From positions 79,147 to 143,146 of the forward strand of contig CANSLJ010000002.1 of NCBI GenBank assembly GCA_947647735.1: a DNA stretch of 64,000 bases. Direction: 5' to 3'. The position numbers were made by a program, and so were the translations under genes. Below the pieces are notes generated by a model, which saw only the letters and a program-made list of their open reading frames with translations, made no database searches and had not been told where the DNA came from. The DNA is from an uncultured bacterium. Lineage in GTDB: Bacteria; Bacillota; Clostridia; Lachnospirales; Lachnospiraceae. Positions 34,919-51,327 of this stretch are shown in pieces (the first letter of the stretch is position 1; each line of letters opens with the position of its first letter).

Positions 34919-34973
34919 CTAATTTTAGTTTCGCAGCAATCCTTCCAGTTCCGTACCGCTTTTTGTTATCCCG

Positions 34974-35031: not shown

Positions 35032-35050
35032 CAGAAACAGGCAAAAAAAG

Positions 35051-35073
35051 ACCGCTGCTTTTGAAACAGCGGT
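35051..35073 (-). terminator. Intrinsic terminator after the rpiR-type gene
   Basis: ACCGCTG/CAGCGGT stem with 9-nt loop, followed on the minus strand by CTTTTTTT. Confidence 0.8.
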
Positions 35074-35089
35074 ACAATATATGGTCTCT

Positions 35090-35965: not shown

Positions 35966-35990
35966 GACTCCTCCTGTTTATCGGCAAGTA

Positions 35991-36755
35991 TTATAGAAAC
36001 AGTTCGTTTTTCTTATGGCCGCTGCACGCCTTTTTCATCGCCACGCTCCCTGCTGCCACAACCGCTTTATTGAGATGGCGCGCCTTCTGCGGGCAGACCG
36101 AGATACAGCGCATACAGGAGATACATTCCTTCGTGTCCGTTTTGGAAGGATCATCCGCCGGGATTGCTCCCACAGGGCACTGCCCTGCACAAAGCCCGCA
36201 GCGTACACACTCTTTCCCAGCCTGCGGTTTCATCGGCACACCGCCGTATTCACGGTACGGACGGTTTCCGGGCAGTTTCAGTTCACTGGTCATTTCCCAT
36301 ACATCCAGTTCACAGCGGATGCGGACCGCAAATCTCTGCAGTTCCTTTCTGTCCTCCTCGTCCGGACGTCCCGCCCCGAACTGCCTCATAATAGAATGCT
36401 CCGCTACAGCCGCCACACCGGCTCTGCATATAAAACCTGCACTCTGCAGTACATCCTGCAATTCTACAAAGGTATCATCGTAGTCCCTGTTTCCGTATAC
36501 TACGATCATCACGGCTTCCGCACCGTTCCCTTTCATCTGCGCAAGCCGTGATACTGCCGCAGCGGGAACCCTTCCGCCATAGGAGGGCACGGATACGATG
36601 CAGACATCATCCTGGTCGAAACAGTACGATGAAAAATCGATACTGCGGTCAGTCAGGTCGATATAGGTACTTTCCGGCCTGTAGGCTTCTGTAAAGATAT
36701 CTGATACTTTTTTTGTTCCGCCGGTGGGGCTGAAGGTGATTTCGTAGATAGACAT
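35991..36755 (-). CDS. EFR1-type flavodoxin plus 2x[4Fe-4S] ferredoxin protein
   Basis: The 254-residue protein has an N-terminal flavodoxin-like domain (ITFSPTGGTKKVSDIF, VSVPSYGGRVPAAAV) and two C-terminal [4Fe-4S] motifs, CVRCGLCAGQCPVGAIP and CISCMRCISVCP. This is the EFR1-family ferrodoxin architecture common in clostridia, presumably an electron carrier using FMN and two clusters. The partner enzyme is unknown. AAAGGAG lies upstream. It is transcribed toward the rpiR gene with a 25-bp gap, so read-through is possible. Confidence 0.9.
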   Translation of the reverse strand: MSIYEITFSPTGGTKKVSDIFTEAYRPESTYIDLTDRSIDFSSYCFDQDDVCIVSVPSYGGRVPAAAVSRLAQMKGNGAEAVMIVVYGNRDYDDTFVELQDVLQSAGFICRAGVAAVAEHSIMRQFGAGRPDEEDRKELQRFAVRIRCELDVWEMTSELKLPGNRPYREYGGVPMKPQAGKECVRCGLCAGQCPVGAIPADDPSKTDTKECISCMRCISVCPQKARHLNKAVVAAGSVAMKKACSGHKKNELFL

Positions 36756-36894
36756 TCCGATACTCCTTTCATTGTATTACATTTTACTTTATCGTCAGAG
36801 GCGACGACTGGGAACTGACACCCCAGCTTAAAAATATGCTGAAAAATCATTGTTGCGATCACCCAAATGATTCCTATAATCTTTTTATTAAAAA

Positions 36895-36920
36895 GCAGCA
36901 TGGCCTTCAAACCATGCCGC
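36895..36920 (-). terminator. Intrinsic terminator of the sugar-acid operon
   Basis: GCAGCATGG/CCATGCCGC stem with an 8-nt loop. The minus strand then reads CTTTTTAAT. It closes the operon that ends with the KDG kinase gene. Confidence 0.8.
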
Positions 36921-36935: not shown

Positions 36936-38033
36936 CTATCTCTGCACTCTCGCGCCCGCGCCGCCCATGATCGCTTCCACTTCTTTTTTGCTCGCCATGG
37001 TCGTATCGCCCGGTGTTGTCATTGCCAGCGCGCCGTGTGCCGCACCGTAGTTGACAGCCAGCTCCGCATCCGCCGTCGTCATCAGCCCGTAGATCAATCC
37101 GGAAGCAAAGGAATCTCCGCCGCCTACCCGGTCCATGATCTCCAGTCCCTTATAATCTTTTGCTTTGTAGATCTCTCCGTCTGCCCAGCAGATCGCACTC
37201 CAGTCATTCACTGTAGCAGTCTTTACCTCTCGCAGGGTTGTTGCCACCGCCTTGAAATTCGAATAGGTCTTTGCCGCTTCGTTGATCATCTTCTTGTAAC
37301 CGTCCAGATTCAGTTCCTTCAGGTTCTCATCATTTCCCTCGATCTCAAAGCCAAGACATGCTGTAAAGTCCTCCTCGTTTCCGATCATCACATCCACATA
37401 CTTCGCCACTTCCTTGTTGACTTCCTGTGCCTTTTCCTTACCGCCGATCGCACTCCACATGGAGGGACGGTAATTCAGATCGTAGGATACCACCGTACCG
37501 TATTTCTTCGCCGTCTTGATCGCCGCCAGCACTGTCTCACAGGACTGCTCGGAGAGCGCCGCATAGATACCGCCCGTATGAAGCCAGCGCACGCCCAACT
37601 CGCCGAAAATATAGTCAAAATCAAAATCCTCCGGCGTCGCCTTGGATATCGCCGTGTTCGCCCTGTCGGAACAGCCCACCGCACCGCGGATGCCAAAACC
37701 CCGCTCTGTAAAATTAATGCCGTTTCTGCAGATACGGCCGATACCGTCCGTCTTCATCCATTTGATCAGGGATGTATCCACCCCGCCCTGCAGAATGAAA
37801 TCCTCCATCAGTTTGCCCACTTCGTTATCCGCAAAGGCAGTGATCACACCGGTCTTCATCCCGAAACATCTCCGAAGCCCGCGCACAACATTGTACTCGC
37901 CGCCGCCCTCCCAGGCGCGGAACTGCCTCGCCGTCCTGATCCTTCCCTCGCCCGGATCCAGCCGCAGCATCACCTCTCCCAGAGATACCGCATCGTACCT
38001 GCATTCGCTCTCAGGCCTTAAATTTAAATTCAT
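36936..38033 (-). CDS. kdgK: PfkB-family 2-keto-3-deoxy-sugar-acid kinase
   Basis: The 365-residue ribokinase-fold enzyme has VSLGEVMLRLDPGEGRIR, WEGGGEYNVVRGL, SYDLNYRPSMW and catalytic VGGGDSFASGLIYGL. It best fits 2-keto-3-deoxygluconate kinases (ATP + KDG to KDPG). It is the last gene of the nine-gene operon and directly follows the KDPG aldolase gene by 57 bp, completing the lower pathway. Its leader has a GC-rich hairpin followed by the 19-mer that also precedes the second kinase gene. It ends RVQR like the paralogue at 49512-50534. Confidence 0.9.
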   Translation of the reverse strand: MNLNLRPESECRYDAVSLGEVMLRLDPGEGRIRTARQFRAWEGGGEYNVVRGLRRCFGMKTGVITAFADNEVGKLMEDFILQGGVDTSLIKWMKTDGIGRICRNGINFTERGFGIRGAVGCSDRANTAISKATPEDFDFDYIFGELGVRWLHTGGIYAALSEQSCETVLAAIKTAKKYGTVVSYDLNYRPSMWSAIGGKEKAQEVNKEVAKYVDVMIGNEEDFTACLGFEIEGNDENLKELNLDGYKKMINEAAKTYSNFKAVATTLREVKTATVNDWSAICWADGEIYKAKDYKGLEIMDRVGGGDSFASGLIYGLMTTADAELAVNYGAAHGALAMTTPGDTTMASKKEVEAIMGGAGARVQR

Positions 38034-38038
38034 ATGAT

Positions 38039-38084
38039 CCTCCTATTCCAGTTCCGCAAGCGCCCGGACAGTGCCCGGGCGCTT
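38039..38084 (-). promoter_or_regulatory. Hairpin plus conserved ribosome-binding leader of kdgK
   Basis: On the minus strand a perfect 10-bp stem (AAGCGCCCGG/CCGGGCGCTT, 7-nt loop, 38058-38084) is followed directly by GCGGAACTGGAATAGGAGG (38057-38039), which contains the Shine-Dalgarno sequence. The same 19-mer occurs at 50561-50543. Confidence 0.7.
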
Positions 38085-38090
38085 ACTGAT

Positions 38091-38726
38091 TTACTCTGCG
38101 TTTGCAAGTGCTACCGCTTCCTTTGTCAGCTCCCTGATCTTGTCAAACTCTCCCGCCTCGATCAGATCCTTCTTCACCATCCAGCTCCCGCCGCACGCCA
38201 CGATAGGCTTGCATGCCAGATACTCTTTCAGGTTCTTCGCGCTGACGCCGCCGGTAGGCATAAACTTCAATCCCACATAAGGCGCAGACAATGCCTTGAT
38301 CGTCGCCACACCGCCAAACTGTTCCGCCGGGAAGAACTTCACGACACGAAGCCCCCTCTTCACCGCCTGAGCAACCTCGGAAGGTGTGATGCACCCCGGA
38401 AATACCGGAATCTCTTTCTCCAGACAGTAATCCACGATCTCCGGATCAAAGCCGGGACTTACGATAAATTTCGCCCCCGCCTCCACAGCACTGTCCACCT
38501 GCTCCTTCGTCAGAACAGTGCCTGCGCCGACCAGCATCTCCGGATAAGCCTCGCTCATCGCTTTAATGCTGTCCTTAGCCGCCGCCGTCCTGAACGTAAC
38601 CTCCGCACAGGGCAGCCCGCCCTCGCAGAGCGCCTTCGCAAGCGGAGCCGCATCCTTCGCATCCTCCAGAACAACCACCGGAACCACCTTCAATTCCGCA
38701 ATCTTCTCTTCCATCTGCTTACTCAT
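38091..38726 (-). CDS. eda: Bifunctional KDPG/KHG aldolase
   Basis: The 211-residue class I aldolase has VPVVVLEDAKDAAPLAKALCEGGLPCAEVTFRT (with the conserved Glu), VGAGTVLTKEQVDSAVEAGAKFIVSPG, and RVVKFFPAEQFGG with the Schiff-base Lys. It cleaves 2-keto-3-deoxy-6-phosphogluconate into pyruvate and glyceraldehyde-3-phosphate. It sits between the dehydratase and KDG kinase genes. A second aldolase gene lies at 50665. Confidence 0.93.
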   Translation of the reverse strand: MSKQMEEKIAELKVVPVVVLEDAKDAAPLAKALCEGGLPCAEVTFRTAAAKDSIKAMSEAYPEMLVGAGTVLTKEQVDSAVEAGAKFIVSPGFDPEIVDYCLEKEIPVFPGCITPSEVAQAVKRGLRVVKFFPAEQFGGVATIKALSAPYVGLKFMPTGGVSAKNLKEYLACKPIVACGGSWMVKKDLIEAGEFDKIRELTKEAVALANAE

Positions 38727-38810
38727 ACTGATACCTCTTTTCTCTTTACTTTATCTCTTTTTATTTCATTTCATCTCATGGATTAACATCACCCGGCAAG
38801 CCAACTCCCA

Positions 38811-38960
38811 GCCCGGAGAGAAATATCCCTGCAGCAACCCTGCTAAACGCCGGCACTTGGCGAGGTTCCTCACGAGCCTAGTACCGTTGCGTTTAGCCGG
38901 CTCTGTTTTTCAAGAGCCTGAGCGACTAGCGCGTTGCGTAAGGGATATTTCTCTCCGGGC
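38811..38960. repeat. 150-nt palindromic structured element
   Basis: The ends form a perfect 20-bp inverted repeat (GCCCGGAGAGAAATATCCCT at 38811-38830 and its complement at 38941-38960). It is extended across a 3x3 internal loop by GCAAC/GTTGC. Inside are a GCTAAACG/CGTTTAGC arm (38842-38897) and a GGCTCT/AGAGCC hairpin (38899-38918). It lies between the dehydratase and aldolase genes. It may be a MITE-like or REP-like repeat, or a processing element in the polycistronic mRNA. Confidence 0.7.
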
Positions 38961-38981
38961 GTCCTGGTTTTTCATCCAAGC

Positions 38982-40766
38982 TTAATCCATATAAGCCCCT
39001 TTCATGGCGCTGACCGCATGCTGGGCATACAGTTTCAACAGTCCGCGGTCATACTTGGAGGTAAACCCTTTCCAGTTCTTCCTCCTCTCCTCCAGCACTG
39101 CCGCCACTTCCTCCTCGGACATCTCCTGTCCATGAATGCCGATGATCGCCAGCTTTCTTGCCTCCACATCCAGCTCAATGATATCGCCCTCTTCCACCAG
39201 CGCAATGGGACCGCCCGCTGCCGCCTCGGGAGATACATGGCCTACCACCGGCCCTCTGGAGGCACCGGAGAACCTTCCGTCCGTGATCAGCGCCACGCTC
39301 GCCGCAAGCTCGGGATCGGAGCAGATCGCCTCACCGGTATAGAACATCTCAGGCATCCCTGTCCCTCTGGGGCCTTCATACCGAATAAAGATCGCATCGC
39401 CGGGCTTGATCTTTTTCTTCAATACCGCATCGATGGCTTCCTCCTCGCTGTCAAATGGCTTCGCGTTCAGCTTCGCCTTAAACATCACCTTCGGGCATGC
39501 CGTATGCTTGATCACAGCCCCCTCCGGTGCCAGATTGCCGCGCAGGATCGCAATGCTGCCGTCTGTCCCCAGAGCATGGTCAAAGTCTCGGATGATATCC
39601 GTATTTTTGATCTCCTTGCCGATCACTTTGCTCTTTTCCTGCAGGATCGCATCACAGTGCTCATAAAATCCGTTCTGCTTCATCTCCTCCAGATTCTCGC
39701 CCAGCGTCTTACCTGTCACCGTCATCACATCCAGATGCAGCACTTCCTTGATCTCTTCCATCACTCTCGGCACGCCGCCTGCATAATAGAAATACTGTGC
39801 CGGCCAGTCCCCCGCGGGACGGATATTGAGCAGGTAATGCGCCCCTCTGTGCAGCCGATCAAACGTATCCGCATCGATCTCAAAACCGAATTCATGGGCG
39901 ATAGCCGGAATGTGCATCACCGCATTGGTGGAACCGGAGATCGCCGCATGCACCATGATCGCATTCTCAAAACTCTTCATAGTCACGATGTCACTGGCTT
40001 TGATGCCTTTCTTCACCAGCTCCATCAACTGTTTTCCCGCTTTATATGCCGCCTCTTTCAGCTCCGGCGCGGTAGCGGGCATCAGAGCCGTACCCGGCAG
40101 CATCAGTCCTAACGCTTCCGCCATGATCTGCATCGTGGATGCCGTTCCCATAAAGGAACATGCGCCGCAGCTCGGGCAGGCATGCTGTTTATAATAGGTA
40201 AGCTGTTCTTCCGGGATCTCCCCTCTCTCAAACTGAGCGCTGAACTTCCCGATCTGCTCCAGCGTCAGCAGCTCATTGATCTTACAGCCCGGATCGTTCT
40301 CCACATACTCCGGCGTCACTACAGTGGCTTCCATAACGCCTCCCGTCACCACAATAGCGCTCATATCCTTGTTTCTGCCGATGCTCATCAGCATCGCCGG
40401 CATTGCCTTGTCACAGCTTGCCACAAAAACACCGCCGTCAAAAGTGGTGGCGCCGATCTGAGCCTCCACCAGATTCACGATGGCATCCCTGTGTGCCAGA
40501 GAATAATTAATGCCGTCATGTCCCTGCGCCATACCGTCACACATATCCGTCGCATAATAACGGGCAGCCTTTCCGCCGTTATCATCCACGCCCTTCACCG
40601 CTTCCTCCACAAAGGTATGCAGATGTCCGGAACCCGGATGGCTGTTGCCATATGTACTTTCTATGATGATCTGAGGTTTACCCAGATCCTCCACCTTCCA
40701 TCCCATCCCCATTCTCAGGGGGTCCATTTCCGGTGCTATCTTTCTGATCTCCTGACTCTTATACAT
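38982..40766 (-). CDS. IlvD/Edd-family sugar-acid dehydratase
   Basis: A 594-residue Fe-S dehydratase from MYKSQEIRKIAPEMDP (AAGGAG 9 nt upstream; an ATG at 40808 would overlap the regulator gene). Cluster cysteines appear in ATDMCDGMAQGHDG, VASCDKAMPAML and HACPSCGACSFMGTAS. Other motifs include GSTNAVMHIPAIAHE and TDGRFSGASRGPVVGHVSPEAAAGGPIA. The family includes dihydroxyacid, phosphogluconate, xylonate and gluconate dehydratases. With a KDPG aldolase and KDG kinase downstream, a sugar acid is the likely substrate rather than a branched-chain amino-acid intermediate. Confidence 0.88.
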   Translation of the reverse strand: MYKSQEIRKIAPEMDPLRMGMGWKVEDLGKPQIIIESTYGNSHPGSGHLHTFVEEAVKGVDDNGGKAARYYATDMCDGMAQGHDGINYSLAHRDAIVNLVEAQIGATTFDGGVFVASCDKAMPAMLMSIGRNKDMSAIVVTGGVMEATVVTPEYVENDPGCKINELLTLEQIGKFSAQFERGEIPEEQLTYYKQHACPSCGACSFMGTASTMQIMAEALGLMLPGTALMPATAPELKEAAYKAGKQLMELVKKGIKASDIVTMKSFENAIMVHAAISGSTNAVMHIPAIAHEFGFEIDADTFDRLHRGAHYLLNIRPAGDWPAQYFYYAGGVPRVMEEIKEVLHLDVMTVTGKTLGENLEEMKQNGFYEHCDAILQEKSKVIGKEIKNTDIIRDFDHALGTDGSIAILRGNLAPEGAVIKHTACPKVMFKAKLNAKPFDSEEEAIDAVLKKKIKPGDAIFIRYEGPRGTGMPEMFYTGEAICSDPELAASVALITDGRFSGASRGPVVGHVSPEAAAGGPIALVEEGDIIELDVEARKLAIIGIHGQEMSEEEVAAVLEERRKNWKGFTSKYDRGLLKLYAQHAVSAMKGAYMD

Positions 40767-40804
40767 GACATCATCTCCTTCACTTCTGTTATTAGTTTCC
40801 CCGT

Positions 40805-41509
40805 TCATGCATCATACATAACGCCGCGCCTGATCGCTTCCCGTCTCAGCTCCTGACTGTTATAAGTCAGGTGCATCAGCATCATATCCTTCGCCCACTG
40901 CGGATCATGAGCCTCCAGCGCCTCCAGAATATCACGGTGTTTCGCCGTGGATTCCGGCGTCGCCTCCCTGTGGGTATATTTGATGAACAATTCCACCCCC
41001 TGCCGCAGTACCGGTATCAGCTTCGGCGCCACAAGGTTACCGCTGCTCTCCGCCAGAACGATATGGAATTCCACGTCCAGAGGCATACGCTCTCTTCTCT
41101 GCGCAGAGAGGCGTTCCATCTCGTCACACATCTCCCGCAGTTTTCCAAGCTGTTCCTCCGTTATATTCTTTGCCGCCATATAGGCGATCTCCGGCTCCAG
41201 CAACATCCGTATCTCATGCAGGTCCCATGTCAGCTTGAACTGATCCTGGATCAGTTCGAGCCCCAGCGGATCTCCTGCCAGCGGCGCTTTTCCGTCCGAT
41301 ACATAAGTACCGGAACCCTGACGCACCTCAAGCACGTTCCGAAACACCAGTATCTTGATCGCTCCCCGCACCGTTCCCCGGCTCACGCCCATGCGTTTCG
41401 CCATCTCCATCTCCGTCCCCAGACGGTCTCCCGGCTGCAGGTTGTTCTCCTTGATATACTCCACGATCTTCTCAAGCACCTGTTCTGTTAATGTTGCCTC
41501 TACATTCAA
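40805..41509 (-). CDS. GntR-family regulator with FCD domain
   Basis: The 234-residue regulator has an N-terminal GntR winged helix (GDRLGTEMEMAKRMGVSRGTVRGAIKILVFRNVLEVRQGSGTYVSDG). An all-helical FCD domain follows, with likely metal ligands in FHIVLAESSGN and later His residues. FCD regulators of this kind control sugar-acid and amino-acid genes and bind sites of the type TnGTnnnACnA. Two such sites lie in the SSS/dgoD divergent region. The gene is embedded in the operon it probably controls. Confidence 0.9.
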   Translation of the reverse strand: MNVEATLTEQVLEKIVEYIKENNLQPGDRLGTEMEMAKRMGVSRGTVRGAIKILVFRNVLEVRQGSGTYVSDGKAPLAGDPLGLELIQDQFKLTWDLHEIRMLLEPEIAYMAAKNITEEQLGKLREMCDEMERLSAQRRERMPLDVEFHIVLAESSGNLVAPKLIPVLRQGVELFIKYTHREATPESTAKHRDILEALEAHDPQWAKDMMLMHLTYNSQELRREAIRRGVMYDA

Positions 41510-41581
41510 ATTTTGATCACCTCTGCCTTAAAATTATGTCATCTAATCCCGGATGTCCTGAAACTCGCAAACCCGCGGTCA

Positions 41582-42712
41582 TTATATCGTAATCTTCCGA
41601 TTCCTCGCAGTCACCTGCCACCAGTCCACCAGTTTCCCGTCAGATACCACCGGCACCTCCGGATAAAGCGCGCTGGTAGGACACACATGCATCGGGATCG
41701 CAAACAGCACATCCCCCACTTCTGGAATGTCTCCCGCATGCTCCGGCGGCACTTCCACCACCCAGTGCTCCTCATTCTGCAATACGGTTTTCGCATACTC
41801 CATGCCCGAAAGGACCGCCCTCTCAGGCGCAGGATCTGTCGCCACCGCCTTGGTTCCCATATCCAGCGTAAAGGTATTGTTACCCTGCACGCTGACTACT
41901 CTGGTCAACACCGCCGCCCCGGGTACAAAATCGAGATCCCGATAAGCCGCCTGATATCCCGCATCCTGAATGATACAGGTTCCGGGACTTAAATACTCCT
42001 CGTTCAGTTTCTGATGGCACGGGAAAGAAGGCGTTCCCCCCATGATCAGAATACCACAGTCAAGCTCTGATGCAAGAAGCCTTTCCTTGATCCCCGCTAT
42101 CTTCTCATCCACCGCCGTCACTTCCCGGTTGCGGACTTCATAGTCGGATTCATGCCGGTGCCCGTCATAGCAGTGCAGCCCCCGCATCGCAATGCCGGAA
42201 ACCTCAGCCCACGCCCGGTAATCTTCCTCCACCTTCTCCATCGAAACACCGGTTCTGTGCTGTCCCGTGTCCACATCCATCAGAAGGTTTACGGATACGC
42301 CCTTTTCACAGGCAGCCGCTCCGATCAGTTCCACCTGCTTTGTACAGTCGGAAACCGCAAAAAATTCCGTCTCCGGATAGGCTTCCATCAAACGCAGAAA
42401 GCGTTCTATATTCGGTCCCACAAGAGGATAGGCAAGGGTTACCTTCGCTGCCCCGGCATTTCCGCACATCTCCGCCTCGGCGATGGTGGCGCATTTAAAT
42501 TTATCAATCCCCTTCGCCATCATCAGCTTTACGACTTCGATCATCTTATGGGTCTTCACATGAGGCCAGAGGCGCCTCGTGCCCCCGGCCAATGTGATCA
42601 TTTTTTCGATATTGTCAGCTATGATATCCTTATAATATACAAGCTGAGGAGATATCACAGCCTCCTGTCCCTCGAATGTGTATGTCATTTTGATAACCAG
42701 ATCCTTTCCCAT
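41582..42712 (-). CDS. D-threonine-aldolase-fold PLP enzyme (DSD/D-glucosaminate dehydratase-like)
   Basis: Up to 376 residues; an ATG at 42688 (MTYTFEGQEAV) is an alternative start. The alanine-racemase-type N-terminal domain has the PLP lysine in WPHVKTHKMIEV. The C-terminal D-serine-dehydratase-like domain has the metal-ligand motif PMHVCPTSALYPEV. The fold covers D-threonine aldolases, D-serine dehydratases and, as I recall, the Pseudomonas D-glucosaminate dehydratase that makes 2-keto-3-deoxygluconate. Sandwiched among deacylase, ridA and KDG genes, dehydration/deamination of an amino-sugar acid is the most coherent role. D-threonine cleavage remains possible. Confidence 0.82.
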   Translation of the reverse strand: MGKDLVIKMTYTFEGQEAVISPQLVYYKDIIADNIEKMITLAGGTRRLWPHVKTHKMIEVVKLMMAKGIDKFKCATIAEAEMCGNAGAAKVTLAYPLVGPNIERFLRLMEAYPETEFFAVSDCTKQVELIGAAACEKGVSVNLLMDVDTGQHRTGVSMEKVEEDYRAWAEVSGIAMRGLHCYDGHRHESDYEVRNREVTAVDEKIAGIKERLLASELDCGILIMGGTPSFPCHQKLNEEYLSPGTCIIQDAGYQAAYRDLDFVPGAAVLTRVVSVQGNNTFTLDMGTKAVATDPAPERAVLSGMEYAKTVLQNEEHWVVEVPPEHAGDIPEVGDVLFAIPMHVCPTSALYPEVPVVSDGKLVDWWQVTARNRKITI

Positions 42713-42718
42713 TGTGAG

Positions 42719-42840
42719 CTAGCTTCACTCACATTGTGCTTCCCTATAGCATCGAATACTCAGCTTCGCTCACAATGCGAGATTCGCTTCGCGAACTCGG
42801 AGTGATTCCTTATAACATAGAATACTCAGCTTCGCTCACA
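42719..42840. repeat. Tandem repeats between ridA and the PLP-enzyme gene
   Basis: A 21-bp perfect direct repeat starting GAATACTCAGCTTCGCTCAC occurs at 42754-42774 and 42820-42840. A weaker third unit (AGCTTCACTCACATTGTG) is near 42721. The second copy abuts the ridA stop codon exactly. A related sequence, CTTCGCTCA-n4-TGCGAGATTC, recurs near 54478 before the second two-component system. Confidence 0.75.
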
Positions 42841-43302
42841 TCATTCGTACTCCACCAGCACTTCGATCTCCACCGCAATGCCGCCCGGCGTCGCGTTGGT
42901 GCCGATCGCCGTACGAGCGGGAAGCCCCTTCTCCTCTCCGAACAGATCCAGAATGAGCTGGGAACCGCCGTTGATCACCTGCGGCTGCTGTGTAAAATCA
43001 TCCGCGCTGTGTACAAAACCCAGCACCTTTACAAAGCGTTTGATCTTATTTAGATCACCCAGTTTTGCATCCAGATTCGCCAGAAGGTTCAGCACGCAGT
43101 TATAAGCCGCCTTCTGTCCCTCTTCCAGTGTCAGGTCTTTCCCGACCTTACCGATCACGTTCTCACTGCCGATCGCAGGGCCGCAGCCGCTGCAGTAAAG
43201 CAGCTTATCGCCAAACTCCATAACAGGCGTGTAGATACCGCCCTTTGCCGGAGGCTCCGGCAGTGTGATTCCCATCTCTTTTAACTTAGCATATACGTCC
43301 AT
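42841..43302 (-). CDS. RidA family enamine/imine deaminase
   Basis: The 153-residue YjgF/YER057c/UK114-like protein has LYCSGCGPAIG, NLLANLDAKLGDLNKIKRFVKVLGFV, the conserved Arg in GLPARTAIGTNATPGGIAVEIEVLVEY and the Glu near the end. RidA proteins hydrolyse reactive enamines released by PLP-dependent dehydratases. Its position next to the PLP dehydratase-like gene suggests the same here. It is of the longer subfamily (about 150 residues). Confidence 0.9.
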   Translation of the reverse strand: MDVYAKLKEMGITLPEPPAKGGIYTPVMEFGDKLLYCSGCGPAIGSENVIGKVGKDLTLEEGQKAAYNCVLNLLANLDAKLGDLNKIKRFVKVLGFVHSADDFTQQPQVINGGSQLILDLFGEEKGLPARTAIGTNATPGGIAVEIEVLVEYE

Positions 43303-43326
43303 TATTCTGTCCTCCTGATAATATAT

Positions 43327-44463
43327 TTATTTTGTCAGCCACTTCATGGCTTTCCTAAGTCTCTCCGCTTCCTCCGGGCAATCCTTCACAAACGGACTGT
43401 GGTACAGATCCTGATACAGCTTCTCCACATTTTCCTCTGTAGGCTCAATGCCGATATCCTTCAGAGTCAACGGCATATTAAAGGTTTTCATCATCTCCCT
43501 CAGCGCCGGGATCTGATCCTCCTGTCCGTTGAAGGAGAGCTGCATGCACTGTCCTACGGCAACGATCTCGCCGTGGATGAAATCTTTTGCTTCCTGTGTA
43601 AAGTGGGTGCGGATCAGCTCGTAGCACTCATGCCCCAGAGCCGTCTGCCCGAAGCCCTTGCTGCAGCCGCTGATAATGCCTGCCACAGCGATATTCAGAT
43701 AGGCGATATCCTCCACCGCTTTAGTCAGCTTCTTATCCGCCACATCCTGCACCGCCTGCATGCCGCGGTTTCTGTAGGTTTCCATCGTATACTTCGCCAG
43801 TGTGAATGCAGTCACCAGCCCCACATCAAACTCTTCAATATCAATGTGGTCATGCCCGTTCTGCATCTCCACCATCTTTGACATACCGTCTAAAATACCG
43901 CTTGCCACATATCTGGGCGGCTCCGCCGCGATCACATCCATATCCACAATGATCGCATCCATCTCAAAGTTATGCCGCAGGCTCCCGAGGGAAGCCCCTT
44001 CCTCCGTATACATGACGCTCAGCGGAGCAAAGGCCGCACAGGTTGCAATACTGGTAGGCACCTGCACCACCGGCATATGACCTCTCGGCAGGGAAAGCTG
44101 CACACCTCCGAAATAAGCCGCCGCCTTGGACTGATCCATGATCCGTCCGCCGCCCACGCCCATGATCACATCACAGCCGGCGTCGATTGCCTTCGCCGCA
44201 TGCTCCTTCGCTTTCTCATAGGTATTCTGCCCCGGATAAATGGATAACTCGTAAGAAATCCCCGCTTCTTTCAAGGTTTTCTCTATCCTGCCTTCCGTTG
44301 CTTCCCATGCCCGCGGCCCCGCAATGATATACGGCTTTTTCCCCAGCCTGCCCACTTCTTCCGCTATGGTTTCCAGTGCCTGCCTCTGCTGAATATAACG
44401 CCCTGCCCCGAATTTATAGGCGTTGTCCAGTTTGATCTCATCCAATGTTCTTGCTTCTGCCAT
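43327..44463 (-). CDS. Iron-containing alcohol dehydrogenase (glycerol-dehydrogenase-like)
   Basis: The 378-residue group III dehydrogenase has NAD-binding GVGGGRIMDQSKAAA, VPTSIATCAAFAPLSV and the metal-site segments DMDVIAAEPPRYVASGILDG and HGEIVAVGQCMQL. It resembles GldA and sugar-alcohol dehydrogenases. In this operon it may reduce or oxidise a sugar-derived intermediate; the substrate is unknown. It is 24 bp upstream of ridA on the same strand. Confidence 0.86.
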   Translation of the reverse strand: MAEARTLDEIKLDNAYKFGAGRYIQQRQALETIAEEVGRLGKKPYIIAGPRAWEATEGRIEKTLKEAGISYELSIYPGQNTYEKAKEHAAKAIDAGCDVIMGVGGGRIMDQSKAAAYFGGVQLSLPRGHMPVVQVPTSIATCAAFAPLSVMYTEEGASLGSLRHNFEMDAIIVDMDVIAAEPPRYVASGILDGMSKMVEMQNGHDHIDIEEFDVGLVTAFTLAKYTMETYRNRGMQAVQDVADKKLTKAVEDIAYLNIAVAGIISGCSKGFGQTALGHECYELIRTHFTQEAKDFIHGEIVAVGQCMQLSFNGQEDQIPALREMMKTFNMPLTLKDIGIEPTEENVEKLYQDLYHSPFVKDCPEEAERLRKAMKWLTK

Positions 44464-44548
44464 TACATATCTCCCTTGTTTTCAATCCCGCCGTCCCTCT
44501 CCGGGCCCGGCATTTCAATTACACCGAAGTTCTCCCCATCCTCGGCCT

Positions 44549-46159
44549 TCAGCTTTCAGCCAGCAGAAGCACTCCGTTGTGCGCCTCCTCAAGCCACTCG
44601 TCCTGCCGGATCGTCAGTTTTCCGTTTAAGAACAGATAATCCAATCCGGTTGCCATCTTTGCCGGGTCCTGGAACGTGGCGTGATCGGTGAATTTCTGCG
44701 GATCAAATACCAGAATATCCGCATAATTTCCCTCTTTCAACACACCTCTTCCCTCCAGTTTCATCCGCGCCGCAGGCAGTCCCGTCATCTTATGGATCGC
44801 CTCCTCCAGCGTGTAGAATCCGCGCTCCTTCACGTACTCCCGGATCACCTTCGGAAAAGCACCGAACATCCTCGGATGAGGCGTATCCGTCGCCGCATAG
44901 ATCGCATCGGATATGATATTGGAATAAGGAAGCTTTGCCACCGTGTCAATGTCATCCTGACACATGCTCATATTGATGATGGCAGTCTTTCCATTCTCCT
45001 CGTGCATCAGAGCCGCCGCAAGCGCCTCGGCATCCGCATAGCCGAACTTCTCCGCCGCTTCCGTCACTGTCATGCCCAGCATGGGTTTAAACTTCTCTTC
45101 TGTTACACCACTGATTATAATACGTTCCCATCCCAAAGTCACGCAGAAGTTGTCCCAGTCATCGTAGGGTATCCGGCTGCTGGCACGAAACTCCTCCACG
45201 CCCTCCGGCGTGCCCAGACGCTCTAAGGCCCTTGTCATATCTCCCGCCACAAATACCGGCGGTAACATAGTGGTCAGCGCCGTGCTTCCGCCCTCATAGG
45301 GATAAAAGTCACAGGTCACATCCTGCCCTTCGCTCCTCGCCTTCTCGATCAGCGCGATCGCCTCGTGGATCTGCTTTCCCCAGTTGTTCACGCCGCAGCT
45401 CTTGAAATGGCTGATCTCCAGCGCACATCCCGCCTTCTTCGCGATCTCGATCACTTCCCGGATGCTCTCCACCATGCTGTCGCCCTCGCCCCTGATGTGG
45501 GTGGCGATCACACGTCCGTACCGTCCCACCGGCTCCAGAATATAGGCGAACTCATCCGTACTGGAATAGCATTCCGGCAGATACATGATGCCCAGAGATA
45601 CACCCGCGGCGCCCCGTTTCATCGCATCTTCGATCAGTGCTCTCGCCGCATCCAGTTCCTCCTGCGTGAAAGGCGTATCCGCAAAGCCCTTCACCGTGAT
45701 CTTCACAGCGCCCGTTCCGACCATCGAAGCAAAGTTTAACGCCAGCGGCGTCTTTTCAAGGGCCCTGATATAATCTTCATAGCTTCTGGGCAGCCCCAGC
45801 TCCATAGGCCCCATCACAGCCTCATCGAAATCGTACATCCCCCTGGCGCCTGCATCCTCCTGCGGACAGGGCGTTAAGGAGATCCCGCACTGACCGACCA
45901 CGGTTGTCGTGATCCCCTGTGCCAGCTCCCGCTTTCCGAAAGCAGGATCATTTAAGGGTTTTGCGTCACAATGTCTGTGAATATCCACAAACCCGGGACA
46001 GACCACCTTCCCGGCGGCATCGATCACCTGGTCGGCTTCGACTCCCTCCAGAGAACCGATCTTCTCGATCTTATCATCTTTTATCAACACATCGCCGGCA
46101 CAGCCCGGATTTCCGAGCCCGTCATAAATGACACCGTTCTTTAACAATATTGTGCTCAT
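44549..46159 (-). CDS. N-acyl-D-amino-acid deacylase family amidohydrolase
   Basis: The 536-residue amidohydrolase has LLKNGVIYDGLGNPGCAGDVLI, the metal motif CPGFVDIHRHCDAKPL, a Cys in VVGQCGISL, EISHFKSCG and a C-terminal YADILVFDPQKF beta domain. D-aminoacylases of this family release the acyl group from N-acyl-D-amino acids, and relatives deacetylate N-acetylated sugar acids. The symporter gene lies upstream and the PLP enzyme gene downstream, so it likely makes the free amine for the next step. No signal peptide, so cytoplasmic. Confidence 0.88.
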   Translation of the reverse strand: MSTILLKNGVIYDGLGNPGCAGDVLIKDDKIEKIGSLEGVEADQVIDAAGKVVCPGFVDIHRHCDAKPLNDPAFGKRELAQGITTTVVGQCGISLTPCPQEDAGARGMYDFDEAVMGPMELGLPRSYEDYIRALEKTPLALNFASMVGTGAVKITVKGFADTPFTQEELDAARALIEDAMKRGAAGVSLGIMYLPECYSSTDEFAYILEPVGRYGRVIATHIRGEGDSMVESIREVIEIAKKAGCALEISHFKSCGVNNWGKQIHEAIALIEKARSEGQDVTCDFYPYEGGSTALTTMLPPVFVAGDMTRALERLGTPEGVEEFRASSRIPYDDWDNFCVTLGWERIIISGVTEEKFKPMLGMTVTEAAEKFGYADAEALAAALMHEENGKTAIINMSMCQDDIDTVAKLPYSNIISDAIYAATDTPHPRMFGAFPKVIREYVKERGFYTLEEAIHKMTGLPAARMKLEGRGVLKEGNYADILVFDPQKFTDHATFQDPAKMATGLDYLFLNGKLTIRQDEWLEEAHNGVLLLAES

Positions 46160-46226
46160 GATTCATTTCCTCTTATTTCTTTTTATATTATCTGCATACT
46201 TTCCGCATTCCTGCTTTTTCCTGCCA

Positions 46227-46259
46227 AAACGGGAGTGAAGAAAGCCTCCACCCCCGTTT
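46227..46259 (-). terminator. Hairpin between symporter and deacylase genes
   Basis: AAACGGGAGTG/CACCCCCGTTT with one mismatch and an 11-nt loop. The minus strand then reads TTTTGG. It may attenuate transcription after the symporter gene rather than stop it, as all downstream genes are co-directional. Confidence 0.5.
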
Positions 46260-46339
46260 ATATGGAATATCTATATTTTTTCCTGTAACCTGTAACAGTA
46301 CGGGAATCTTCCCGATCAGCTACGTTGATCAGAAATCAG

Positions 46340-47827
46340 TTATTTACCAGCACGTGCATCAAATACAGCTTTCACACGCTCTTCGTCCGGTGTATTGTCA
46401 ACCGGTGTAACAAGGCTTACTACCACGCCAAATACCAGAGAGATAATGGTTGCCGGAACAGCAGCACCGCCGAGTACGGAATCTACCCAACCGCTGAGAG
46501 CGGGGATCAACAGGTAAAGAAGGCCGAAACCTGTACCGGAAATGATACAAGCCATACCACCCTGCCATGTTGCACGTTTCCAGAAACGTCCCATGAACAT
46601 ACAGATCGCAAGACCCGGAAGAAGGGAACCTACTACCTTCTGGATATATGTAATAACGTCGTTTACAAACAGTGTGATCAGGAAAGCAACGCCGAGGGTT
46701 ACCACCAGAGCGATCCTGGAATACTTCGGATAATCTTCCTCTTTGATCGTCTTGCCTGTTACGCTGGGATATACGTCTGTCAGCAGGATCGTGATACCGG
46801 AGATGGCATCGGAGTCACCTGAGGACATGGTAGCGGACAGACCTGCGATCATCAGCACCAGACCGAATACAGGACCAAGTACGTGAGTTGCCATGAAGGA
46901 GAACGCATAGTCAGCGGATTCCAGTGTTACGCCCTGGCCGTTTGCGATCGTGAATGCGCTCATACCGATGATAGCTGTTACAAAGCTCCAGAAGAACAGC
47001 ATGATACCGGAAGTAAGGAATGCCTTGCGGGCTGTCTGTTCATTTGCAGCCGTATAAATTCTTGTACGGTGTGTCGGTGTACCGATAACGCCCATGTAGG
47101 TGGACAGAACCAGTGCGATAGCAGGCATAAGACCGTACTGTGCCAGGCCGTAGAAGCCCATAGCGCCGGGTTTGCCGACAGCTTCAAAAGTAGCTGCGAT
47201 ATTTGCATAACCGCCTGCCGCCGGAATAGCCTTGATCGCGATCAGCGCGAAACCTGCAACGATAACACAGAACTGAACCGCGTCAGTAACAACTACCGCA
47301 AGATAACCGCCGATAAATACATAAACTGCGAATGCCAGCACGGTGATGACTTTACAGATCACATCATCAAGACCTGTGATGTAAGCCAGATACTTGGAAC
47401 CGCCGTTCATGTGGTTGCCCAGCCAGATGATCTCAACAACGAACATCATGAAGCCCATTGTCTGACGAACGATCTTTTTACCACCGTAATAGTACTGTGC
47501 CTCCTCCGACATGGTGAGGAACTTTTTATCACGGATCTTAACAAACATTAACATGGAGAGAATACCGGTACATGCACCTAATCCGTAGATCGCGCCTGCC
47601 CAGCCGCCGTTATAGCCGTTGGCGATAGCGCCCATGGAAGAACCGGTACCGATCATTGTTGCACCTACGGTACAGAAGATAAGGAAGAATCCCAGATTCG
47701 CACCACCTGTCAGGAAGTTGGAACCGCTGGTCTTTCCTCTTGTTGAAAGTACGCCTACCAGGATCATGATCGCAATGTAGGCGAGGAAGCCGCCGATAAA
47801 CAACGGCACATACCTTGAGTCTAGCAT
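46340..47827 (-). CDS. Sodium:solute symporter (SSS family)
   Basis: The 495-residue protein has about 13 predicted helices and SSS signatures: GGANLGFFLIFCTVGATMIGTGSSMGA, an SGDSDAISGITILLTDVYPS segment in the conserved C-terminal region, and VGSLLPGLAICMF. It would import an organic solute with Na+. As the first gene of the sugar-acid operon it probably supplies the substrate. AAGGAGG precedes the start. It diverges from dgoD across 394 bp containing operator-like sites. Confidence 0.9.
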   Translation of the reverse strand: MLDSRYVPLFIGGFLAYIAIMILVGVLSTRGKTSGSNFLTGGANLGFFLIFCTVGATMIGTGSSMGAIANGYNGGWAGAIYGLGACTGILSMLMFVKIRDKKFLTMSEEAQYYYGGKKIVRQTMGFMMFVVEIIWLGNHMNGGSKYLAYITGLDDVICKVITVLAFAVYVFIGGYLAVVVTDAVQFCVIVAGFALIAIKAIPAAGGYANIAATFEAVGKPGAMGFYGLAQYGLMPAIALVLSTYMGVIGTPTHRTRIYTAANEQTARKAFLTSGIMLFFWSFVTAIIGMSAFTIANGQGVTLESADYAFSFMATHVLGPVFGLVLMIAGLSATMSSGDSDAISGITILLTDVYPSVTGKTIKEEDYPKYSRIALVVTLGVAFLITLFVNDVITYIQKVVGSLLPGLAICMFMGRFWKRATWQGGMACIISGTGFGLLYLLIPALSGWVDSVLGGAAVPATIISLVFGVVVSLVTPVDNTPDEERVKAVFDARAGK

Positions 47828-47893: not shown

Positions 47894-48021
47894 ATTTGAT
47901 ATAACACAAATTTACCATCCCTTTACATATTTGTCAATCGAAAAAGCCTTTTCTTTTATTTGGCAGGCGTTTTTTTATGTTTTGCACAATTTTTCATTCT
48001 TGTTTTGTGCACATTGTCCTA

Positions 48022-48049
48022 TTGCATTTGTTCAACAATGTTATATAAT
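48022..48049 (+). promoter_or_regulatory. dgoD promoter with embedded FCD-GntR operator candidate 2
   Basis: TTGCAT (48022-48027) and TATAAT (48044-48049) are 16 bp apart. TTGTTCAACAA (48028-48038), a palindrome fitting TnGTnnnACnA, occupies the spacer, ideal for repression. Confidence 0.6.
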
Positions 48050-48221
48050 TATCGTAAATTATTATTTTCAGACAAATACCAGCCGTTGTCAATTTGAACG
48101 GCGGTTTTTCCAAAACCGGTTTTTCGGCTCGTTTTTGTCTATCAACTTTATTGAATGTTTTAATTTTTTATATTTTTTTCATTATTCTAATCATTCTTAT
48201 TTTAAAAGGAGGCTGCATGCT

Positions 48222-49370
48222 ATGAAAATCACTGAAGTAAACACTTACACCGTCCGCCCCCGCTGGGGTTTTGTGGAGATCATCACGGACGAAGGGATCA
48301 CCGGATGGGGCGAACCCGTGCTGGAGGGACACTGCAGTACCGTTCTCGCCTGCGTACAGGAGATGAAGGACTATCTGATCGGTGCTGATCCCGGAAATAT
48401 CGAGGACATCTGGAGCACTCTTTACCGTGCAGGCTTCTACAGAGGCGGCGGCGTGCTGATGAGCGCCATCTCCGGTATCGATCAGGCTCTGTGGGATATC
48501 AAGGGAAAGGCTCTGGGCGTACCCGTATATGAACTGATGGGAGGCGCCTGCCATACAAAGATGAAAGTTTACAGCTGGATCGGCGGAGACCGTCCCAGCG
48601 ATGTGGGTGCTGCAGCCCTCGAGAAGAAAAATGCGGGCTTCAAGGCGATCAAGATGAATGCTACCGAGGAACTGCAGATGGTTGATTCCTATGACAAGGT
48701 AGATGCTGTATTGGAGCGTGTTGCGGCGATCCGTGAATCCTGCGGCAAGTATTTCGGCATTGCCATCGACTTCCACGGCCGTGTGCATAAACCCATGGCG
48801 AAGATCCTTGCCAAAAAGCTGGAAGAATTTGATCCCATGTTTATCGAGGAGCCCGTGCTGTGCGAAAACATGGAATATTTCCCTGAGATCGCGGCAGCCT
48901 GCAATATTCCGATTGCTACGGGCGAACGTCTCTTCAGCAAATATGATTTCAAGCGCCTTCTGCAGACCGGCGGTGTGGATATCATTCAGCCCGACTTAAG
49001 CCACGCGGGCGGCCTTACCGAGGTGAAGAAGATCGGCGCTATGGCGGAAGCTTACGATGTGGCGCTGGCTCCCCACTGCCCTCTCGGACCGATTGCACTG
49101 GCAAGCTGCCTGAACGTGGACGCTACCTGCTACAACGCAGTCATTCAGGAACAGAGCATGGGTATCCATTACAATGTGGGCAAGAGCGTTCTGGATTATG
49201 TTAACAACAAAGAAGATTTCGAGTTTATTGACGGTTATGTAAATCTGCCGAAGCTCCCGGGACTTGGTGTGGATGTGAACAAGGAACTGGTGCTGGAGGA
49301 GGCCAAGGTGAACCATAACTGGAAGAATCCTGTCTGGAGACATGAGGATGGATCTATCGCGGAGTGGTAA
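48222..49370 (+). CDS. dgoD: D-galactonate dehydratase-like enolase-superfamily enzyme
   Basis: The 382-residue protein has the same length as E. coli DgoD and is similar throughout: [73 protein letters not shown]-type segment, [15 protein letters not shown], and a C-terminal [10 protein letters not shown]. Mg ligands (Asp, Glu, Glu) and catalytic His residues are present. It dehydrates D-galactonate to 2-keto-3-deoxygalactonate. AAAGGAGG precedes the ATG. The frame is open upstream to 47883 but lacks any start context. A second kinase/aldolase pair is convergent downstream. Confidence 0.93.
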
Positions 49371-49511: not shown

Positions 49512-50534
49512 CTACCTCTGCACACGCCCGGATGCGTTGCCGCCGGCGAGGGAGAGAACTTCCGCCTCCGATACGAGATTGAAGTCATGCTCGATGGTGT
49601 GCTTTAAGCAGGAAGCCGCCACCGCAAAGTTGATGGCATCCTGCTGGCTCATGCCTTTTCTCAGGGCATGGATCAGGCCGCCGCCGAAGGAGTCGCCGCC
49701 GCCCACACGGTCAACGATATGTACCAGATATTCCGGCGAGAAGCATGCTTCGCCGTCCTTGTAGAGCATACCTGCCCACTTGTTGTCCGTAGCGGAGATG
49801 CTTCCGCGCAGGGTGATCGCAACATACTCGCAGCCGAAACGGTCGGAAAGCTGTTTTGCCACGCCGATATATCCCTCACGGCTGATCTTGCCGGTGTTGA
49901 TGTCGGTTCCTTCCGCATGGATGCCGAATACGTCCGCCGCATCTTCCTCATTGGCAATGCATACATCCACATAGGGCATCAGTTCGCCCATCACTTTTCC
50001 TGCCTGTTCGCTGGTCCAAAGTTTTTTACGGAAATTTAAGTCACAGCTTATCTTCACGCCCTTTGCCTTTGCCGCCTTGCAGGCATCCAGACAGATCTCC
50101 GGATTCTCGCCGCCGAGTGCCGGTGTGATCCCTGTGAAATGGAACCAGTCCGCTCCCTCAAAGATCTTATCCCAGTCAAAGTCTTCCCGTTTTGCCAGAG
50201 CGATGGAAGAACCCGCACGGTCATAGATCACCTTGGAGGGACGCTGGGAAGCACCCTTCTCCACAAAATAGATACCGAGACGCGGTCCGCCGATCACGAT
50301 ATCGCCGGTGTCCACGCCAAACTGGCGCAGGGAATTGATGGCGCTCTGCCCGATATCATTGTTCGGAAGCTTTGTCACAAAAGACGCCTCATTTCCATAA
50401 TTGACGAGAGATACGGAAACGTTTGCCTCTCCTCCCGCATAAGATGCCTCAAATCTTCCCGCCTGTACGAATCTCAGATATCCTTCCGGATTCAGGCGCA
50501 TCATAATTTCACCAAAACATACTACTTTAGACAT
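49512..50534 (-). CDS. Second PfkB-family 2-keto-3-deoxy-sugar-acid kinase
   Basis: The 340-residue ribokinase-fold kinase has VVCFGEIMMRLNPEGYLRF, YAGGEANVSVSL, SCDLNFRKKLW and catalytic VDRVGGGDSFGGGLIHAL. It is a paralogue of the kinase at 36936 (both end RVQR). Next to dgoD and an aldolase gene it probably phosphorylates 2-keto-3-deoxygalactonate, the DgoK role, though by a PfkB-type enzyme. The leader contains a long structured element and the 19-mer with the Shine-Dalgarno sequence. Confidence 0.88.
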   Translation of the reverse strand: MSKVVCFGEIMMRLNPEGYLRFVQAGRFEASYAGGEANVSVSLVNYGNEASFVTKLPNNDIGQSAINSLRQFGVDTGDIVIGGPRLGIYFVEKGASQRPSKVIYDRAGSSIALAKREDFDWDKIFEGADWFHFTGITPALGGENPEICLDACKAAKAKGVKISCDLNFRKKLWTSEQAGKVMGELMPYVDVCIANEEDAADVFGIHAEGTDINTGKISREGYIGVAKQLSDRFGCEYVAITLRGSISATDNKWAGMLYKDGEACFSPEYLVHIVDRVGGGDSFGGGLIHALRKGMSQQDAINFAVAASCLKHTIEHDFNLVSEAEVLSLAGGNASGRVQR

Positions 50535-50664: not shown

Positions 50665-51327
50665 TTATGCTTCCTTCGCATTCGTTACAAATTCCTTCGC
50701 AAGCGCCGTGATCTTATCGAACTCGCCGTTCCTAATCCACTCCGCGTTTACCAGATTGCCGCCTACGCCTGCTCCGATGGCGCCGGCACGGATAAACTCC
50801 GCAATATTCTTTTCATTGACGCCCCCCACTGCCAGCACGGGAATATGGCTCATCGGCGCTTTCACCGCCTTTACATAAGCCGCGCCCAGATTGCCTACCG
50901 GGAATATCTTCACAAAGTCCGCCCCCGCCTCATAAGCCGTCTCAATCTCAGTGGGCGTCATGGCGCCGGGCATTGTCACAAGTCCCTGCTCCTTTGCATA
51001 ACGGATCACATCCGGTTTGGTGGACGGTGTGATGATATAGAGTGCCCCCGCCTCCTTTGCCAGATCCACCTGTTCTTTGCTCAGCACTGTGCCTGCGCCT
51101 ACCATTACCTTACCTTCAAGCTGCTCGCTGATGGCACGGATGGCTTTTGTTGTCGCCTCATAATGGTCCGTGCTCTTCTGATTGAATGTGATCTCCACCA
51201 TATTGATGCCGCCCTCGCAGAGCGCTTCCGCCAGCTTCACGCAGTATTCCGGTTCCATCCCGCGGACGATCGCGATCAGCTTGTTGTCATACACATTCTG
51301 AATGATCTCTTCTCTGGTTGGTTTCAT
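50665..51327 (-). CDS. Second KDPG/KDPGal-type aldolase
   Basis: The 220-residue class I aldolase has LIAIVRGMEPEYCVKLAEALCEGGINMVEITFNQ (conserved Glu), VGAGTVLSKEQVDLAKEAGALYIITPS and FVKIFPVGNLG with the Schiff-base Lys. In context of dgoD it should cleave 2-keto-3-deoxy-6-phosphogalactonate (DgoA role) to pyruvate and glyceraldehyde-3-phosphate. First gene of a two-gene operon with the kinase, preceded by an 18-bp palindrome. Confidence 0.9.
   Translation of the reverse strand: MKPTREEIIQNVYDNKLIAIVRGMEPEYCVKLAEALCEGGINMVEITFNQKSTDHYEATTKAIRAISEQLEGKVMVGAGTVLSKEQVDLAKEAGALYIITPSTKPDVIRYAKEQGLVTMPGAMTPTEIETAYEAGADFVKIFPVGNLGAAYVKAVKAPMSHIPVLAVGGVNEKNIAEFIRAGAIGAGVGGNLVNAEWIRNGEFDKITALAKEFVTNAKEA

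Follow-up and report, generated by a model that had tools for sequence, protein, structure and literature searches.

Which compound does an operon consume when it carries both a D-aminoacylase-like gene and genes for the breakdown of 2-keto-3-deoxy sugar acids? The question is raised by a locus in an uncultured Lachnospiraceae bacterium (assembly GCA_947647735.1), within a 64,000-nucleotide stretch of contig CANSLJ010000002.1 (positions 79,147 to 143,146) that is hereafter called the window. Nine genes, all on the minus strand and running from 47827 to 36936, encode a sodium:solute symporter (SSS), an N-deacylase, an iron-dependent alcohol dehydrogenase (Fe-ADH), a RidA protein, a fold-type III pyridoxal 5'-phosphate (PLP) enzyme, a GntR/FCD regulator, an IlvD/Edd-type dehydratase, a 2-keto-3-deoxy-6-phosphogluconate (KDPG) aldolase and a PfkB kinase (Table 1). 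A preliminary description of this DNA had listed the same nine co-directional genes and families, and all were found in place when the coordinates were re-checked. Judging by the names of its relatives, the bacterium probably comes from a gut.

We propose, with a probability of roughly 0.6, that the operon serves the uptake, deacylation, deamination and use of an N-acyl-hexosaminate. An N-acyl-2-amino-2-deoxy-hexonate (N-acetyl-D-glucosaminate or its galacto epimer) would enter through a sodium symporter of the OngIT type, and a presumed zinc deacylase of the D-aminoacylase fold would hydrolyze the N-acyl group. A metal-assisted fold-type III PLP dehydratase would then remove water across C2-C3, and RidA would assist the hydrolysis of the freed enamine/imine to yield ammonia and a 2-keto-3-deoxy-aldonate. 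The latter would be phosphorylated by a 2-keto-3-deoxygluconate (KDG) kinase and cleaved by the KDPG aldolase to pyruvate and triose phosphate. The IlvD-type enzyme and a divergently encoded galactonate dehydratase, DgoD, would supply this 2-keto-3-deoxy-aldonate pool from the corresponding plain aldonates, with the Fe-ADH as an accessory.

A route of this kind has already been described, with genetics and enzymology, for the ong cluster of Pseudoalteromonas (Jiang 2022, PMC9537276; cited here and below from excerpts of the paper). In P. prydzensis, the SSS protein OngIT takes up free N-acetyl-D-glucosaminic acid (GlcNAc1A), OngB deacetylates it, OngC turns glucosaminate into KDG and ammonia, and KdgK phosphorylates the KDG. 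Knock-outs revealed that OngIT, OngB, OngC, the RidA protein OngD and KdgK are all required; the assays cover the OngB, OngC and KdgK steps, and the excerpts assign the essential OngD no known role. GlcNAc1A catabolism has so far been tied to oxygen-dependent chitin oxidation. According to the same excerpts, the complete GlcNAc1A pathway occurs in Gammaproteobacteria and one Betaproteobacterium, and the ong clusters of Vibrio, Klebsiella and Serratia also include a putative aldolase for KDG 6-phosphate (PMC9537276). The preliminary description had known of no such anaerobic operon in gut clostridia. Among the titles listed in searches of open-licence papers, none dealt with N-acetyl-hexosaminate catabolism in gut clostridia. 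Because the route is already published in marine Gammaproteobacteria, however, only its clostridial and spirochaete version, which is partly non-orthologous, is new. If the proposal is true, a conserved pathway in hosts without a lytic polysaccharide monooxygenase would imply that N-acetyl-hexosaminates are available in anaerobic habitats. One would then ask which organisms produce them, and proteins now called only 'D-aminoacylase' or named after D-threonine aldolase would gain a function.

Importer and enzymes

The predicted importer type is the strongest link to the ong cluster. The ten best matches of the window symporter in a plasmid collection are all OngIT-type proteins, from Vibrio, Klebsiella and Pseudoalteromonas (36-41% identity, 262-366 bits), and for nine of the ten an OngB-type gene adjoins on the same record. 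The next match is at 26% identity, and the other 15 among the matches listed score 100 bits or less. The window protein is likewise 36-41% identical to two symporters of Pseudoalteromonas, one of Klebsiella and one of Vibrio, and reaches 70.8-85.8 bits with models of proline and pantothenate symporters. In a phylogenetic tree it forms a single clade (96/100), adjoining the OngIT proteins, with 19 others encoded near PLP genes; the rooting is weak because the outgroups sit on very long branches, but the score gap is plain.

The deacylase retains the complete subtype V metal site, consisting of Cys97, His222, His252 and the catalytic Asp368 together with His68 and His70 (numbering of P. prydzensis OngB, PpOngB), as well as Glu226. 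Also present are the carboxylate and acetamide anchors Tyr194, Lys254, Tyr285, Ser291 and Arg379, which are common to D-aminoacylases. The retained contacts to metal, alpha-carboxylate and amide lead us to expect a substrate that carries both an N-acyl group and an alpha-carboxylate. Elsewhere, Leu116 and Leu370 of OngB are replaced by Val and Ile, and on the sugar side Ala193 by Met, Ala256 by Cys and Gly348 by Ser. The structural model (pLDDT 94.7) gives Z scores of 57.0-57.5 against D-aminoacylases and 56.3-56.4 against PpOngB, values so nearly equal that the comparison is not informative, and among the matches listed (best 25 of 57) no NCBIfam model passes its cut-off. Separately, proteins annotated as D-aminoacylases in haloarchaea (plasmid-collection matches H2-H4, H6-H10, H12-H15 and H20) align with this long deacylase at 34-37% identity over 96-99% of the length.

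The PLP enzyme is predicted to be of the dehydratase type. A His-x-Cys metal site (H342/C344), not His-x-Asp, is found in all 81 PLP-enzyme sequences compared, and 80 of them carry Asp at the position of the aldolase base His193. In contrast, D-threonine aldolase of A. xylosoxidans uses His347 and Asp349 as ligands and His193 as base, and we counted the beta-hydroxyaspartate aldolase BhcC with it as a differing system. In view of the other metal ligand and the missing base, we reject the idea that the enzyme acts mainly as a D-threonine aldolase. The Zn-dependent D-serine dehydratase and D-threo-3-hydroxyaspartate dehydratase share both the fold and the His-Cys metal site, but they are only 20-23% identical to the window enzyme and act on small substrates. 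OngC and its Klebsiella counterpart also have His-x-Cys, but with Glu at the base position, and in the tree the window enzyme (model pLDDT 89.1) lies on the opposite side from OngC and is not orthologous to it. Two distant branches of one fold thus appear to perform the same elimination. Neither of the two NCBIfam models listed for the PLP enzyme passes its cut-off.

The remaining enzymes are assigned at the family level. No NCBIfam model matched RidA. The IlvD-type protein falls below the cut-off of all eight NCBIfam models listed, those for dihydroxyacid dehydratase (DHAD) and sugar-acid dehydratases alike, and its closest solved relatives are DHAD. For the kinase, the best NCBIfam relatives are an aldolase/sugar-kinase fusion and kinases for KDG or 2-keto-3-deoxygalactonate (KDGal), all below cut-off. 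The solved relatives closest to the Fe-ADH are glycerol dehydrogenases; the preliminary description had made this enzyme a feeder step, but the gene is missing from four syntenic relatives (L033-L036), so it is not a core step and we regard it as accessory. With regard to the epimer, the Eda-type aldolase at 38091 and the activity of marine OngC would point to a gluco substrate, whereas DgoD, the presence of DgoK in 5 of 80 relatives and the KDGal kinase of Klebsiella would point to a galacto substrate.

Gene context in related genomes

Two overlapping samples were used to examine how the genes travel together. In a set of 299 family genomes that includes the one carrying the window, the PLP enzyme occurs in eight (E<=1e-30), the symporter in two, both at this locus (E<=1e-60), and the deacylase in 15 (E<=1e-100). 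Seven of the eight PLP-enzyme genomes also have the deacylase (on another contig in G033 and G111), and a fold-type III PLP gene lies within 3 kb of the deacylase in 11 of the 15 deacylase-bearing genomes. The one same-genus genome sampled (G184) lacks all three at these limits, which marks the locus as accessory. A scan of genome contigs returned 222 relatives of the PLP enzyme, and the best 80 loci were read. Because L036 is the same contig as L017 (G269), and L082, L093 and L104 are contigs of G149, G217 and G111, the two samples are not independent.

All nine genes and the divergent dgoD recur in L025, L026 and L027, which are a [Clostridium] symbiosum metagenome-assembled genome and two Lachnospiraceae, with small extra open reading frames (ORFs) in the last two loci. 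The first seven genes are present in L028-L030 (Petralouisia muris included), and the same seven minus the Fe-ADH in L033-L036; in L031 the set is shuffled and GntR is missing, and L032 has the PLP enzyme and deacylase alone. Symporter, deacylase, RidA, PLP enzyme and IlvD are therefore together in 11 relatives (L025-L031 and L033-L036), and this grouping is not due to chance. The preliminary description had named beforehand a lack of conserved association in related genomes as a ground for dropping its proposal; the association recurs, and the proposal is not refuted on that ground.

Counts within 9 kb of the PLP gene, made from BLAST labels at 80 loci of which 18 have less than 5 kb of sequence on at least one side, extend this picture. 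RidA is nearby in 64 loci, a D-aminoacylase-type deacylase in 38, an M20 deacylase in 15, and either one in 49. The symporter appears in 19 loci, a sugar ABC permease in 17, DgoD in 13, IlvD in 11, Fe-ADH in 8, a MurQ, BadF or SIS gene in 8, and an HpcH aldolase in 5. The KDPG aldolase is found in 21 loci, in 20 of them with a KDG or KDGal kinase, and corresponds to 9 of 52 clusters at 70% identity and 6 of 30 at 60%. When the window-like loci L025-L036 are left out, the aldolase is still present in 11 of 68, 10 of which have neither IlvD nor DgoD. The chance of a KDPG aldolase within 9 kb is about 0.5% (106 PF01081 matches in 120 family genomes), although many of the 80 loci lie outside the family from which this rate derives, to the disadvantage of our proposal; the binomial tails are 6e-12 (70% clusters) and 8e-9 (60%), with clusters that are not strictly independent.

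On the PLP tree, the presence of the aldolase requires at least eight changes, and KDG genes rejoin the PLP gene in distant clades. This pattern bears on the idea that two unrelated transcription units, one from symporter to PLP enzyme and the other from GntR to kinase, are adjacent by accident. Several intergenic gaps do contain hairpins, one with a TTTT end, and many loci have the deacylase, PLP enzyme and RidA without the second half. Given the rejoining in distant clades and the linkage of symporter, deacylase, RidA, PLP enzyme and IlvD in 11 relatives, we judge an accidental adjacency very improbable. The most telling context is offered by L065 and L069, where the PLP enzyme and RidA are coupled directly to a KDPG-type aldolase and DgoK, with an ABC importer of family 3 (amino-acid type) and no deacylase in view (Pfam annotation for L069; the L065 contig spans only 7.8 kb). 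This gene set is what a free-hexosaminate route would need.

As a control, we used a second fold-type III PLP subfamily, represented by the genome's own paralogue on contig C18 and its relatives (13 loci, 6.8-20 kb read). In the stretch read, a KDPG aldolase or KDG kinase occurs at none of the 13, while a deacylase of either type is present in 10, RidA in 8 and a DgoD relative in 2. At the control locus G015, a KDPG aldolase lies 10.4 kb off, outside the stretch read. As a separate observation, loci of this subfamily (G000 contig C18, L024 9588-16560; L110-L121) combine an M20 or D-aminoacylase-type deacylase with RidA and sugar ABC transporters, some include GH9-like, SIS and BadF genes, and the C18 paralogue adjoins an alpha-L-fucosidase-family gene.

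Weighing the proposed substrate

Several observations weigh against an N-acyl-hexosaminate as the substrate. First, Ser290 and Ser292 of OngB are Gly and Thr in the window deacylase, Thr being the D-aminoacylase residue, and the insertion that forms its specificity region has about 49 extra residues, such that the OngB Gln298 position is not alignable. Second, the PLP model is nearest in fold to D-threonine aldolases, followed by D-serine and D-hydroxyaspartate dehydratases; sequence identity between the enzyme and OngC is about 20%, and the marine protein accepts D-serine and D-threonine for deamination as well (PMC9537276). Third, no KDPG aldolase lies within 9 kb in 59 of the 80 PLP loci, the MurQ/MupG loci L093 and L100 included, and the 80 loci, being the best of 222, lean towards window-like ones. 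Fourth, the control comparison (0/13 versus 21/80) yields a Fisher p of only 0.036, and the difference is not significant without the window-like loci (p 0.35, computed with 10/68; a recount gives 11/68); the 13-locus control is too small to decide. Finally, the 86.6% complete genome has no match to glycoside hydrolase family 20 (GH20; PF00728) and none to lytic polysaccharide monooxygenase (LPMO; PF03067), which leaves the source of the substrate unexplained.

Without the OngB serines, N-acetyl-glucosaminate as the deacylase substrate is suggested by gene context and not by residues. What survives of the pathway in the preliminary description is the more general N-acylated amino-sugar acid route, to which the importer type, the deacylase site, the PLP metal site and the recurring genes lend support. 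The same residues also bear on an unlikely alternative, in which one half of the operon (symporter, deacylase, PLP enzyme and RidA) handles common N-acyl-D-amino acids, for instance N-acetyl-D-serine or N-acetyl-D-threonine, while IlvD, aldolase and kinase serve only plain aldonates and share the operon for convenience. The Gly/Thr pair, with Thr as in characterized D-aminoacylases, would suit this reading, as would the structure-based identities (34% to AfDam and 31% to BbDam, versus 29-30% to PpOngB), the D-serine and D-threonine activity of OngC and the aldolase-free loci. It is at odds with an importer that groups with OngIT and has low scores with proline and pantothenate models, and with KDG/KDGal genes that accompany the PLP gene in six clusters (60% identity) and at 10 loci devoid of IlvD and DgoD.

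The acid might instead form the oxidized amino-sugar terminus of a fragment derived from peptidoglycan or host glycans, such as a hexosaminate with lactyl or further sugars, and the free N-acetyl-hexosaminate would be just one possible form. The window operon has no MurQ, MupG, PTS, GH9-type or sugar ABC genes, and its symporter is of the OngIT type, of which the marine member imports the free monosaccharide acid (PMC9537276), so we hold this to be improbable, even though relatives adjoin MurQ, phosphotransferase system (PTS) and MupG genes in L093 and L100, MurQ, BadF kinase or SIS genes in 8 of 80 loci, sugar ABC permeases in 17 of 80 and a GH9-type gene in L077, L086 and L099 (Pfam run on L086). 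In L093 (3980-11585) and L100, genes for RpiR, MurQ, PTS, MupG (6-phospho-N-acetylmuramidase), a deacylase, the PLP enzyme and RidA stand in a row (Pfam on L093), an arrangement that suggests a link to muropeptide sugar salvage.

Returning to N-acyl-hexosaminate catabolism, a broader claim can be advanced only tentatively, namely that the PLP subfamily seen across Clostridia and Spirochaetes forms a new hexosaminate ammonia-lyase class whose recruitment was separate from that of marine OngC. Together with RidA and swappable deacylases (D-aminoacylase, M20 or none), it would constitute an oxygen-independent gut route for oxidized amino sugars. Such compounds are possibly made in guts by host oxidants or left as oxidized ends of glycans or peptidoglycan.

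Locus layout and comparison with known systems

Table 1. Features of the operon and its flanks in window coordinates (KHG, 2-keto-4-hydroxyglutarate; KDPGal, 2-keto-3-deoxy-6-phosphogalactonate).
Feature	Position	Strand	Evidence
SSF sodium:solute symporter, OngIT type (predicted N-acyl-hexosaminate importer)	46340..47827	-	PF00474; plasmid-collection matches; tree
Amidohydro_3 N-deacylase, D-aminoacylase fold, long subfamily, 536 aa	44549..46159	-	
GldA-like Fe-ADH family dehydrogenase, accessory	43327..44463	-	PF00465; solved relatives; patchy in relatives
RidA family (predicted enamine/imine deaminase)	42841..43302	-	PF14588, PF01042
Fold-type III PLP enzyme, Ala_racemase_N + D-ser_dehydrat; predicted 2-amino-2-deoxy-aldonate dehydratase (deaminase)	41582..42712	-	
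GntR/FCD regulator	40805..41509	-	PF07729, PF00392
ILVD_EDD dehydratase, probably sugar-acid dehydratase	38982..40808	-	PF00920 + PF24877
KDPG/KHG aldolase	38091..38726	-	PF01081; PRK05718 282.6 bits, cut-off 241
PfkB kinase, predicted KDG/KDGal kinase	36936..38033	-	PF00294
Intrinsic terminator just 3' of kinase gene	36890..36920	-	9-bp stem, then T5; folded
Promoter-like site, TTGACA-17-TAAATT	47909..47937	-	pattern scan
Candidate GntR operator TTTGTTCGACAA	47883..47894	-	conserved upstream motif
Divergent D-galactonate dehydratase DgoD	48192..49370	+	NCBIfam galactonate dehydratase 645.9 bits, cut-off 311
Second PfkB kinase, KDG/KDGal type	49512..50534	-	NCBIfam relatives, below cut-off
Second KDPG/KDPGal-type aldolase	50665..51327	-	TIGR01182 178 bits, cut-off 156

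The terminator behind the kinase gene is not among the matches of the window pattern scan and was found by reading and folding. Folding also predicts a hairpin with a TTTT end between symporter and deacylase genes and strong hairpins in both gaps flanking the aldolase gene. The preliminary description had the operon end in one terminator; the terminal hairpin with its T5 run is there, but the further hairpins make this too simple and more than one transcript possible. Two 39-nucleotide direct repeats, 90% identical and 66 bp apart, occupy the RidA/PLP gap (42736-42840), and the IlvD/aldolase gap holds a 28-nucleotide inverted repeat with 94 nucleotides between its arms (38811-38960), which lies within a very stable fold and looks like an extragenic palindromic element.

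In the aligned upstream regions of the window and ten relatives, the TTGACAAA of the promoter-like site is conserved in 11 of 11, as is GTYNGACAA directly downstream of it. The GntR protein may act at the candidate operator, of which copies with one mismatch lie at 48027-48038 and 48065-48076. A scan of the window gave six matches versus 1.96 expected. The whole genome holds three exact sites versus 11 for the reversed control, so the genome scan defines no regulon; a match on contig C7 falls within an ORF. Both PF01081 matches of the 4.1-Mb assembly are the aldolases of this locus. Past the terminator on the same strand (32933-36755) are genes for a PTS EIIBCA permease, an RpiR/SIS regulator and a 4Fe-4S ferredoxin-domain protein, and the sole Rfam match at gathering level in the window is an FMN riboswitch at 52724-52873 (+; 83.9 bits).

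We compared the locus with the Pseudoalteromonas ong cluster (L011) and a Klebsiella variant (L013). With the former (PMC9537276, PMC12017989; both from excerpts) it shares the SSS importer type, a deacylase of the D-aminoacylase fold with the same metal site, a fold-type III PLP enzyme with His-x-Cys and, at the family level, RidA and a KDG-type kinase. However, the deacylase differs in subfamily and specificity residues, and the PLP enzyme shares only about one residue in five with its marine counterpart. The marine regulator is the RpiR protein OngR, whereas the window operon has GntR/FCD inside and an RpiR-family gene (35090-35965) past the terminator, next to the PTS gene. The window genome, 86.6% complete, shows no match to GH20 (the family of OngA) or to LPMO, and IlvD, DgoD and Fe-ADH are added. 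The ong cluster is found in Proteobacteria, the window type in Bacillota and Spirochaetota. Plain orthology with the marine cluster is ruled out by the PLP identity, the PLP tree and the deacylase residues.

The Klebsiella variant likewise keeps deacylase, PLP enzyme, RidA, kinase and aldolase together, with an SSS protein 40% identical to that of the window, but its deacylase retains Ser290, Ser292 and Gln298, its kinase is annotated as 2-dehydro-3-deoxygalactonokinase and its regulator is of the RpiR family. Its deacylase, annotated 'D-acylase' (L013 6981-8420), matches PDB 9g5m in the stretches compared and, given the retained residues and the ong-type cluster, may be a hexosaminate deacetylase. 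The De Ley-Doudoroff pathway for D-galactonate resembles the locus in joining DgoD to a KDG/KDGal-type kinase and a KDPG-type aldolase, but removes no acyl or amino group. Taken together, we read the operon as a mosaic form of a published pathway, one that occurs in Clostridia and Spirochaetes, and not as new chemistry; what is new are the hosts, the other deacylase and deaminase subfamilies, and the coupling to dehydratases for plain aldonates.

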